Shown: positions 61,704 to 64,000 of the stretch, one piece after another | Layout: each line of letters begins with the position of its first letter | Position numbering within the stretch: position 1 is the stretch's first letter | Assembly: GCF_016858305.2 (NCBI RefSeq) | Contig: NZ_CP074436.1 | Coordinates: 2,438,001-2,502,000 of the forward strand | Source: Polaribacter sp. Q13 | GTDB lineage: Bacteria; Bacteroidota; Bacteroidia; Flavobacteriales; Flavobacteriaceae | DNA: 64,000 bases | Direction: 5' to 3' | Made by a program: the position numbers and the translations under genes | The notes under the pieces: generated by a model | The model's input: only the letters and a program-made list of their open reading frames with translations | Database searches by the model: none | What the model was told of the DNA's origin: nothing

Positions 61704-62345
61704 ATGAAAAGTTATTTCCCCAGAACGCCACGTTATATAATGAGATTTTTCTCTAAATATACGTGGCGTTTTCTTTCTGATAAAAAAGAGATTTTTCTCA
61801 CTTTTGATGATGGACCAACGCCAGAAATTACCGATTTTATTTTAGCTGAATTAAAAAAATACAATGCGAAAGCTACCTTCTTTTGTATTGGAAAAAATGT
61901 ACAGAATCATCCAGAAATTTTTCTTAAAATTATTACGGATGGTCATACCGTAGGAAACCACACCCAAAACCATTTAAAAGGATGGAATACGGATACGGAT
62001 AGTTATATTGATAACGTTTTAGCGTGTGAGAAAACAATTCAACAATTTAACAATTCAACAATTACACAAAAACTCTTTAGACCTCCTTACGGAAAAATAA
62101 AAAAATCTCAAGCAGCAGAGTTAATCAAAAAAAGCTACAAAATTATTATGTGGAGCGTTTTATCTGCAGATTTTGACACTACAATTTCTAATGAAAAATG
62201 TTTAGAGAACGTATTAAAAAACACTAAATCAGGTAGTATTATTGTTTTTCATGACAGCGTAAAAGCTGCCGAAAGAATGAAATATGCGTTACCAAAAGTA
62301 TTAAAATATTTTTCTGATAAAGGCTTTGTTTTTAAGGCAATATAA
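61704..62345 (+). CDS. Polysaccharide deacetylase (NodB domain)
   Basis: 213 residues. Carbohydrate esterase 4 motifs in order: TFDDGPTPE (catalytic and metal Asp), HTVGNHTQNH (metal His pair), RPPYGKIKKS, WSVLSADFD and VFHDS. A short N-terminal hydrophobic/basic segment, no clear signal peptide. Removes N- or O-acetyl groups from a glycan, probably peptidoglycan or a surface polymer. It starts 10 bp after the DUF2723 gene, so cotranscribed. Confidence 0.92.
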   Translation: MKSYFPRTPRYIMRFFSKYTWRFLSDKKEIFLTFDDGPTPEITDFILAELKKYNAKATFFCIGKNVQNHPEIFLKIITDGHTVGNHTQNHLKGWNTDTDSYIDNVLACEKTIQQFNNSTITQKLFRPPYGKIKKSQAAELIKKSYKIIMWSVLSADFDTTISNEKCLENVLKNTKSGSIIVFHDSVKAAERMKYALPKVLKYFSDKGFVFKAI

Positions 62346-62507
62346 AATTACAGAATATCATTTTGCACAAAGAAACCTGAGAATTTAGAAACACCTAATG
62401 AATTAGCTTTATGGGATTTCTCCTAAAGTCCTTTAGATTAGCAAAGTATAATTATTGAGTTTAATTCTTATATTTTAGTCCAATATAGAACTCATGTTTT
62501 ATAATAA

Positions 62508-62647
62508 AAAAGAATGGAGTGAACTTTCCTTAAGTCTAGATTTATCAGATCTATATTTCGTATTAGTCTCCATTCTTTTATTTCCGATTACAAAGGACCA
62601 AATAGAATTTCAGTTTCGACCTTTTAAAGGTTTTAGTCAACGTAATC
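62508..62647 (+). ncRNA. Candidate bridge RNA of the IS110 element
   Basis: Domain 1 (target loop): 12-bp perfect stem AAAAGAATGGAG / CTCCATTCTTTT enclosing a left guide (62525-62533), an inner hairpin TAGAT/ATCTA (62537-62553) and a right guide ATTTCGTATT (62555-62564). The right guide is the exact reverse complement of the right flank 63681-63690. Domain 2 (donor loop): GATTAC/GTAATC outer and AAAGG/CCTTT inner stems, with ATAGAA (62602-62607) matching the right element end plus core, and TAAAGGTTTT (62625-62634) matching the complement of the left element end. Exact transcript ends are not known. Confidence 0.72.
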
Positions 62648-62673
62648 ATTTTTTACTAACACAAAACAAAATT

Positions 62674-63648
62674 ATGAAAATTAAACAAACTATTGGTATC
62701 GACATTAGTAAATTAACCTTTGATGTTCGGATTCACAGTAATCAGTGTTATCAAGCATTTGAGAATAACTTAAAAGGTTTTAAAGCACTTATAAAATGGG
62801 TAGAAAAAAACAACTCTATTTCTAAGGAACACACAGGTATTTATTCTGAAGAAATCGCATCATTTTTTGATGTAAATAACTTTTATTTCGCATTAATTCC
62901 AGGTTTAGAAATAAAGAAATCTCTAGGAATATCAAGAGGAAAAGATGACAAAGTAGATGCTACAAAAATAGCATTATATGGGTATCGATTAAGAGATGAA
63001 ATTAAACCATATAAACTTCCATCAAAAAACATTCATCAATTAAAACGCCTTTTAACATTAAGAGAAAGGCTAGTGAAACAAAACGCTGGTTATAAAGCAA
63101 CACTTAAAGAACAGAAAAGAGTTTATACTAGAAAAGAGAATCAACTTCTTTTAGAAACTCAAGAGAAAATGATAAAATATTTTACAAAGCAAATTAAAAG
63201 TGTTGAAGCCGAAATGAACAAAATAATTAAGGCTAGTGAACAACTTAAAAAACAATACAAACTAATTGTGAGTATTAAAGGAATTGGTAGTCAAACAGCT
63301 TTATTTATGATTGTAACAACCAACGGATTTACAAAGTTTGCTTCTTGGAGAAAGTTTGCTTCTTATTCTGGTATTGCTCCTTTTCCGAATACTTCAGGAA
63401 CAAGTATAAGAGGGAGAACCAAAGTAAGTAATCTTGCTAATAAAAAAATCAAAAGTCTTTTTGATATGTGTGCAAAATCAGCAATACAATACAATCCAGA
63501 AATGAAGCTATTTTATAATCGAAGAGTCGAACAAGGAAAGAATAAAATGAGTACAATTAACATCATTAGAAATAAATTATTATCACGAATTTTTGCAGCT
63601 ATAAAAAGACAAACTCCTTATGTAAATGTTTTAAAATATGCTGCTTAA
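62674..63648 (+). CDS. IS110-family DEDD transposase/recombinase
   Basis: 324 residues from the ATG at 62674 (MKIKQTIGIDISKLTFDV). A longer frame from 62494 would run through the bridge-RNA region and is rejected. The RuvC-like DEDD domain is complete: first Asp in GIDISK, Glu in KEHTGIYSEE, DKVDATKIALYG with the Asp pair. A coiled-coil linker (about 140-190) precedes the C-terminal Transposase_20 domain with IKGIGSQTALFMI and the SYSGIAPFPNTSGTSIRG segment containing the conserved Ser. It appears intact and active. Confidence 0.95.
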   Translation: MKIKQTIGIDISKLTFDVRIHSNQCYQAFENNLKGFKALIKWVEKNNSISKEHTGIYSEEIASFFDVNNFYFALIPGLEIKKSLGISRGKDDKVDATKIALYGYRLRDEIKPYKLPSKNIHQLKRLLTLRERLVKQNAGYKATLKEQKRVYTRKENQLLLETQEKMIKYFTKQIKSVEAEMNKIIKASEQLKKQYKLIVSIKGIGSQTALFMIVTTNGFTKFASWRKFASYSGIAPFPNTSGTSIRGRTKVSNLANKKIKSLFDMCAKSAIQYNPEMKLFYNRRVEQGKNKMSTINIIRNKLLSRIFAAIKRQTPYVNVLKYAA

Positions 63649-63682
63649 AAATTACTAAAATATATTTGGTAGAGTCATAGAA

Positions 63683-64000
63683 TACGAAATGACAAAACTG
63701 CACGTAAATATTAAACTTTATATTTGAATCACATAGAAACATAGTGAATTTATTTTGCTTTAAAAAAAGTAAATAACACTCCAAATGTTATTTCGAAATG
63801 AGTTTTTTTAGCGGTTGAGAAATCTCATAACAGTGAAAACACAAAACTGATCTTCCTTCTGTTATTTCTCACAAAAGTTTAAAATGACAAAACTGTATGT
63901 CATCAATTTAGTATGTAATTTTATGGAAAAATAATGCCTAGCCACTTAATAAATAAAAGATAGCTTCGTGCCTCGCAATGACAAAAGGTTGGCAAACAAG
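63683..64000. repeat. Repeat-rich intergenic end of the window
   Basis: Starts with the right half of the repeat copy split by the IS (to about 63700). A further copy at 63786-63894 (TTATTTCGAAATGAG...GAGAAATCTCATAACAGTG, reverse orientation relative to the 25 kb array) follows. The last 40 bases contain a TAGCTTCGTGCCTCGCAATGAC-type motif. No coding sequence is seen. Confidence 0.65.

Follow-up and report, generated by a model that had tools for sequence, protein, structure and literature searches.

A predicted bridge RNA-guided IS110-group insertion sequence in Polaribacter sp. Q13, with its ends, guides and target repeat as read from its relatives

Results

The element and its recombinase

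The window analysed here is a stretch of 64,000 nucleotides from Polaribacter sp. Q13 (contig NZ_CP074436.1, positions 2,438,001 to 2,502,000 of the forward strand), and all coordinates refer to it. The following features were placed at the locus.

62431..63685, + strand: IS110-group element as inserted (1255 bp), from the alignment of four copies with differing flanks
62505..62656, + strand: predicted bridge RNA with the target loop ahead of the donor loop (bounded as in the covariance model and not by mapped transcript ends)
62674..63648, + strand: IS110 recombinase gene (324 aa), from which 21 bp are deleted in frame after 62825, next to the catalytic Glu
62422..62430, + strand: left target, positions 1-9 of the 14-nt target (core TC, 62429-62430)
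63677..63685, + strand: right end, which is the left donor, positions 1-9 (core AC, 63684-63685)
63686..63690, + strand: right target, positions 10-14, from the flank/guide comparison

The element is a well-founded addition to the IS110 group of insertion sequences, a kind already known, with a long left end of 243 bp holding the RNA and a short right end of 37 bp. DEDD_Tnp_IS110 and Transposase_20 domains were found in one protein (Pfam PF01548 and PF02371, both above cut-off), whose 324 aa, like the 331 of the sister copies, lie within the span of about 300-460 aa expected for the group. IS621 and ISCro4 were the two PDB sequences matched by the recombinase at E up to 0.001. Read against IS621, the catalytic D, E, D, D and Ser were present, D10, E52, D92, D95, S241 and S244 being invariant in the four proteins compared. 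The recombinase frame is also open through most of the bridge RNA (62494-62673), giving a 384-aa ORF from the ATG at 62494; the conserved start is the ATG at 62674.

The three sister copies are 1276 bp long and carry an unbroken 331-codon frame. The window copy equals one of them (L032) minus 21 bp, otherwise letter for letter, so that one of the two arose recently. The deletion sits between two copies of GGAACACAC and takes out 7 aa just before the DEDD glutamate (E52), and the frame remains open. The transposase had been called intact in the original prediction; with these residues gone, the window recombinase is expected to have lost its function. Owing to the deletion, the window copy probably cannot move by itself; the sister copies may be able to.

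Ends of the element

Patterns for the left end and the right end were searched in the genome and gave four matches each, all on one strand. The left flanks preceding CTTTAGATTAGC read gatttctcctAAAgtc, gatttctccctTTGgtc, gatttctcctATTgtc and gatttctcctATCgtc. GTC is constant before CTTTAGATTAGC, and the bases preceding GTC vary (AAA, TTG, ATT and ATC). AATAC is constant at the right end, and the flank after GAATAC is gaaatgac in three copies and aaaatgac in one. The four copies read as a target split after GTC, without duplication. From these copies and from element-free repeats of the same family, the exchange point was placed after C62430 on the left and after C63685 on the right. The C at position 9 of the left target was verified without forcing C in the search motif.

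The original prediction had set the ends at 62426 and 63682, with an AA core shared by both. Since GTC is constant and the three bases before it are variable, the AA at 62426-62427 is flank and not core, and the AA at 63681-63682 belongs to the element; in IS621 numbering these are positions 5 and 6. The predicted ends therefore lay three bases too far left at both junctions, as judged from the four copies and the empty repeats. The comparison of further copies thus placed the ends elsewhere, an outcome that the prediction itself had named beforehand as refuting.

Target repeat and empty sites

The guides of the window element aim at an interspersed repeat that reads ...CTCCTnnnGTC followed by GAAATGACA. 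Repeat members without the element read like ...GTC followed by GAAATGACA, for example GATTTCTCCTATCGTCGAAATGACA. A search of the genome with the repeat pattern gave 28 matches and the reversed control gave 0. TCGAAATGACA was read in 23 of the 28; over the whole genome it was counted 47 times, and its control twice. None of the 28 ends in ACGAAATGACA, and the empty site proposed originally was met in 0 of them. Empty sites lacking the proposed junction had likewise been named beforehand as refuting, and they tell against the ends first drawn. Two of the four predicted empty sites were found verbatim elsewhere in the genome (L072 for L032; L076, L079, L090 and L091 for L034).

The empty sites used here are paralogous repeats. 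A search for an orthologous empty site gave none: the upstream deacetylase gene was found in relatives, and the DNA behind it did not align in the six loci examined. Such a site is expected to carry GTC, not TAC, before GAAATGAC. The predicted target is ...CCTAAAGTCGAAATGAC in the corrected register and CTCCTAAATACGAAATGAC in the register first proposed. Inside the deacetylase gene, at 62040-62070, a caattcaacaatt-type stretch was seen that recurs as short matches in several relatives.

Other IS110 elements were seen beside repeats. L035 (G000:C1:2953512-2954444) and L036 (G000:C1:2976552-2977484), of a second, distant IS110 lineage in the same genome (about 32% identity), seem by eye to have inserted into the family of repeats that the window element targets, though on its other strand (TTGTCAT / CATTTCGAA). 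Their left-end region holds matching letters, again by eye, and L036 adjoins L033. Two distant IS110 lineages in one genome thus seem to aim at the same interspersed repeat. Elements of further lineages (L054-L070, L010, L011 and L017-L028) appear, by eye, to occupy both ends of a different flavobacterial repeat, which reads AACGTGTATGG ... ATTATACACGGTGTTGGC and includes a GAAAGTCC/GGACTTTC hairpin.

Bridge RNA structure

A two-loop bridge RNA is predicted 5' of the recombinase gene, in the left end of the element, with the following stems.

62509..62519, + strand: target-loop stem, 5' side (pairs with 62568-62578)
62568..62578, + strand: target-loop stem, 3' side (pairs with 62509-62519)
62586..62591, + strand: donor-loop stem, 5' side (pairs with 62642-62647)
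62642..62647, + strand: donor-loop stem, 3' side (pairs with 62586-62591)

A covariance model was built from 37 relatives, none of them from this genome and with the closest relative (L114) excluded. It contains 16 pairs, all in the first domain, the second domain not having been drawn by RNAalifold. Searched against the window, the model matched 62505-62656 at 144.8 bits (E 7.2e-22), the next match having 11.6 bits. The same model recovered L147, L135, L054, L067, L011, L155 and L141 among 12 more distant loci. Rfam at gathering thresholds reported no bridge-RNA family in the window, only a tRNA.

The two-domain structure was written by hand after the sequences had been seen, which biases one control of the pairing test; in this structure 89.7% of 1141 cells were paired versus 77.1% in shuffles, and 23 of 31 pairs were changed on both sides. 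The target-loop stem (helix 1) was paired in 96.8% of cells, with 10 of 11 pairs changed on both sides, and the donor-loop stem (helix 4) in 86.1%, with 6 of 6 pairs so changed. The apical helices 3 and 6 were the weakest (83.8 and 70.9% of cells paired). On the Pfam domains, the covariance model and the covarying helices, the prediction of an IS110 element with a two-domain bridge RNA upstream of its transposase was borne out, as was the structural conservation of this region among relatives.

Target guides

The guides of the target loop were compared with the flanks of the element.

62528..62536, + strand: left target guide (8/9 with 62422-62430)
62555..62559, + strand: right target guide (5/5 with 63686-63690; G62560 pairs with the core C)

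Repeats of the same copy were left out, and 57 copies were parsed, of which the 54 with both flanks gave 36 distinct guide pairs. A further 38 loci were left unparsed, a loop motif being missing. L012, L013, L015, L016, L018, L020, L021, L022, L025 and L029 were omitted since plus-strand matches only were taken, and so were 23 of 66 loci, which hold partial genes. Over the 36 guide pairs the right guide matched its flank at a mean of 4.31 of 5 positions against 1.64 (sd 0.18) with permuted flanks, and the left guide at 5.64 of 8 against 2.81 (sd 0.21); 0 of 2000 permutations reached either score, in a test that leaves the relatedness among elements in place. Two registers were allowed for the left guide, in real and permuted pairs alike, since a fixed offset failed for loops with an extra base. 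The left flank of L115 was parsed one base off and was scored as a miss.

The right guide matched at 5/5 in 21 of the 36 pairs, at 4/5 in 10 and at fewer positions in 5; it thus missed at least one base in 15 pairs. By position, matches at 10 to 14 numbered 32, 32, 32, 30 and 29 of 36, and those beyond, at 15 to 17, numbered 3, 8 and 5. For the left guide, counts at positions 1 to 9 were 25, 24, 24, 24, 27, 27, 28, 24 and 30 of 36, using the better register of each pair and therefore leaning upward; outside it, at positions 0, -1 and -2, they were 6, 14 and 10. The edges between positions 1 and 0 (25 then 6 of 36) and between 14 and 15 (29 then 3 of 36) indicate guides that span positions 1-9 on the left and 10-14 on the right, the published IS621 layout.

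The proposed order of the parts was supported, with the target loop before the donor loop and, in each loop, the left guide 5' and the right guide 3'. The likeness of 62525-62533 to 62419-62427 had been reported for the left guide; its letters were confirmed (7/9) and its register was not, the corrected guide being 62528-62536. Similarly, 62555-62564 is indeed the exact reverse complement of 63681-63690, and it is not a 10-nt right target guide. It consists of the guide proper (5 nt), a single core base and the four handshake bases, which match the donor, since the inserted right junction is made of donor plus target.

The earlier caveat that single guides are short was justified. In the window, 14 places, including the right junction, are complementary to some 10-mer of the loop, and the 5-nt right guide fits 146 places. 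The 9-nt left guide fits 4 places at 8/9 or better (the target, the guide itself and two others), against 1 to 15 in 20 shuffled windows. Single guide matches in one copy are thus weak, and the weight comes from the relatives.

In L042/L114 (Polaribacter sp. IC073) the donor loop is nearly identical to that of the window and the target guides are different. They fit their own site, CTTCGTGCCTC/GCAATGACG, which is a different repeat, at 8/9 and 4/5. This element is read from its sequence as a case of natural retargeting. A GCTTCGTGCCTCGCAATGACA repeat copy, the target type of the L042/L114 element, was seen at 63963-63983, just past the element of the window. The flanks of L115 and L116, GTACGGTTC/TGTGAGAGGTTTAGGGGTGAGACTCCCC, look like part of a group II intron, which suggests that some elements of the group target introns.

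Donor guides and handshake

The bases that correspond to the ends of the element itself are as follows.

62602..62608, + strand: left donor guide, positions 1-7 (equals right end 63677-63683)
62625..62630, + strand: right donor guide TAAAGG (complementary to 62430-62435)
62561..62564, + strand: target-loop handshake bases TATT (complementary to donor AATA, 63681-63684)

The identity of 62602-62607 with 63677-63682, as originally reported, was confirmed. Across 39 relatives the left donor guides gave 272 matches with the right ends versus 257.7 (sd 2.5) when permuted, and 0 of 5000 permutations reached this score; right-end variants are few, 29 of 39 elements sharing one, and are probably related by descent. 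The right ends ATAGAATAC, ATAGGATAC, TTAGAATAC and TTAGAATTC (36 of 39) agree with their own guides at positions 1-7. In the three TAGAAATTC elements the fit to the left donor guide is shifted by one base, and their scores were not corrected for this. The TAAAGG guide and the CCTTTA end were present in 39 of 39, both having been used to pick or parse the set. Variants of the right donor guide were found only in L135 and L147, outside this set, with TTAAGGG facing CCCTTAG.

Four bases of the target loop agree with the donor. They could pair with donor positions 8, 7, 6 and 5 in 35, 36, 36 and 32 of 36 elements, and with the target in 8, 11, 4 and 6 of 36 (wobbles apart); these counts reflect plain conservation in large part, and the motifs used for parsing account for some of the agreement. 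Of the copies that carry the GTGAACT motif, L140 and L155 failed the loop motif and L045 the right-end motif. Few handshake forms have changed on both sides: GAATT faces AATTC in 2 elements and GTATC faces GATAC in 1. In 5 of 36 elements one handshake base is not a Watson-Crick pair. In IS621, bases beside the right guide are reported to pair with the other DNA once the strands have been exchanged (Hiraizumi et al.).

A handshake of the donor loop with target positions 5-8 was at chance in the 36 pairs (Watson-Crick in 7, 6, 9 and 8). The last four bases of the fourth guide as first drawn, 62625-62634 against 62426-62435, therefore carry no weight: the letters agreed (partly by eye), and a full 10-nt right donor guide did not hold.

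A high-copy relative

In a genome of the same genus (G056:C1), a related element is present in about 70 copies, and its right target is of the GGGGG type. With C not forced, C stands at position 9 in 69 of 70 left ends there, the exception (L233) having T, and in 46 of 47 copies outside that genome, where L122, the one exception, is an internal motif. When the search left positions 6-8 free, the right ends of G056 read ATA (AATAC) in 69 of 69. For the flanks, 69 copies, 68 of them with a right end (L045 without), gave 58 distinct sites. Target position 8 is A in 9 of these 58 sites, and in 7 of the 36 guide-pair representatives. The donor AATA was found on the left in 0 of 58; one site (L195) has ATA at left positions 6-8, about the chance expectation. 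At positions 1-2 the left guide of G056 finds few matches (4 and 8 of 58) if no bulge is permitted, and the right guide agrees with L047 and L204 at 0/5. At L115, L047 and L204 the right junction reads AATAC then CTTTA, as if these were left-end bases, and the right guide misfits.

Because the cores of target and donor differ, natural copies record strand inheritance. The bottom strands of IS621 are reported to be cut between 9* and 10* (PMC11208158/PMC11208160). By our reading of that numbering, the IS621 cuts would leave positions 6-9 as a mixed duplex. No mixing at positions 6-9 was found in the natural copies of G056. Selection against altered right ends may in part account for this absence, though dead copies should persist; repair bias is another possible cause.

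We tentatively suggest, with somewhat less than even confidence, that in this Bacteroidota clade target and donor need have no core base in common other than C9, that the handshake spans four bases, and that either the mismatches expected from staggered cuts, as reported for IS621, are repaired to match the top strand, or exchange does not extend to the bottom strands. On this suggestion the position-8 base and three further target-loop bases would serve the donor, and the handshake would be mostly mismatched with the target before exchange.

A proposed circle-junction promoter

Two boxes were located that would face each other across the abutted ends of an excised circle.

63665..63668, + strand: TTTG, right-end half of the proposed circle-junction promoter (-33 box)
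62434..62441, + strand: TAGATTAG, left-end half of the proposed circle-junction promoter (-7 box)

The left-end box TAGATTTG was found in 17 of 39 relatives. When each right end was joined to its left end, 31 of 39 junctions had a TTG at exactly 20 nt ahead of TAGATTTG or a close variant; in two the distance was 19 nt, and six had no such TTG. When the right ends were shuffled with their last 12 bases kept (1000 trials), TTG at 20 nt occurred in a mean of 0.8 and a maximum of 5 of 39. The window junction reads TTTG-N20-TAGATTAG, one base off the -7 box, and 20 of 39 boxes fit TAnnTTTG exactly. TAnnTTTG is the primary -7 box of flavobacteria (PMC9723704). A Bacteroidota-type promoter is therefore proposed to form where the circle ends abut.

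Discussion

The locus is best explained as an IS110-group element guided by a bridge RNA, with ends at 62431 and 63685, and we hold this account with high confidence. It rests on ends, target guides, RNA structure and a target repeat read by sequence comparison; we infer transcription, the order of cutting (from IS621) and activity.

On excision, the right end would abut the left end in a circle, with the predicted junction AATAC/CTTTAG. This would join TTTG to the TAnnTTTG-like box, and the bridge RNA would be switched on. Its first loop would pair with the 14-nt target, the left guide with positions 1-9 and the right guide with positions 10-14. The second loop would pair with the abutted ends through the left donor guide at positions 1-7 and the right donor guide at positions 9-14. 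The DEDD/Ser recombinase would then cut the top strands after position 9 and exchange them, so that the left junction would retain the core of the target and the right junction that of the donor. After exchange, the four handshake bases of the first loop could pair with the incoming donor strand.

This scheme is close to that of IS621, an IS110-group element of E. coli. The window element has the same pairing of DEDD and Tnp20 domains in the recombinase (PDB match 8wt6). With IS621 as described (PMC11208158, PMC11208160), it also shares a two-loop bridge RNA in the left end, an exchange point that follows position 9, a right guide covering 10-14, handshake bases beside that guide and, as proposed here, a junction promoter. 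The core of IS621 is given as positions 8-9, with the right guide on 10-14, in PMC11208158. Unlike IS621, which has a shared CT core, the elements described here have nC in their targets and AC in the donor (TC left and AC right in the window), and the nearly invariant base is C9 instead of T9. Four target-loop bases agree here with donor positions 5-8, a donor-loop handshake was not seen in the 36 pairs, and the proposed junction promoter is of the TTG/TAnnTTTG type.

Other known systems are related in part. ISCro4, the second PDB sequence match, is alike in its IS110-type recombinase. For the seekRNA elements ISEc21 (IS110 type) and ISEc11 (IS1111 type), PMC11187229 describes an abutted-end circle that makes a promoter and a non-coding RNA that picks the target. 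By that description, the essential non-coding region of ISEc11 lies downstream of the gene, whereas here it lies in the left end (PMC11187229). In the IS1111 group the RNA is in the right end; here the right end has only 37 bp and the RNA is in the left end.

As first drawn, the element ran from 62426 to 63682, its core was AA at either end and its right target guide was 10 nt long. This version agrees with the letters of the window copy, in which AA is present at both places. We nevertheless consider it very improbable: the supposed left core is not AA in the three sister copies, where GTC is constant, the junction it predicts is missing from all 28 repeat matches, and across the 36 elements the match of the right guide ends after position 14, AATA belonging to the right end. 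An ordinary transposase that recognises DNA, with the agreement of flanks and RNA due to coincidence or to short homology from insertion into repeats, would be consistent with the weakness of single matches in one copy. It is scarcely credible when the guides change with the flanks among relatives, permuted flanks lose the match and the RNA structure covaries.

A different doubt is whether any copy in this genome is still active. The RNA and ends might have been kept solely through the youth of the copies of a dead remnant, and the 21-bp deletion in the window copy and the small number of copies (4, all on one strand) speak for this. Against it, the three sisters keep the unbroken 331-codon frame, and the derivation of the window copy from L032, or the reverse, dates one of them as recent. 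We judge such a remnant to be rather unlikely, though a good deal less remote than either of the preceding accounts; the bridge RNA-guided element remains the preferred explanation.

Among the literature matches listed, in a coverage outside which most subscription journals and preprints lie, no title dealt with this clade of IS110 elements. The clade, the unequal cores and the proposed junction promoter are details that were not found in that literature.

The present case indicates that the guides, ends and core of an uncharacterised IS110 element can be read at base level from its relatives. It provides a natural series of elements in which two short guides change together with the target. 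The unequal cores reveal strand inheritance in genomes, which identical CT cores cannot do. Finally, given the proposed Bacteroidota-type promoter at the junction, these elements may be suited to hosts where E. coli parts fail.
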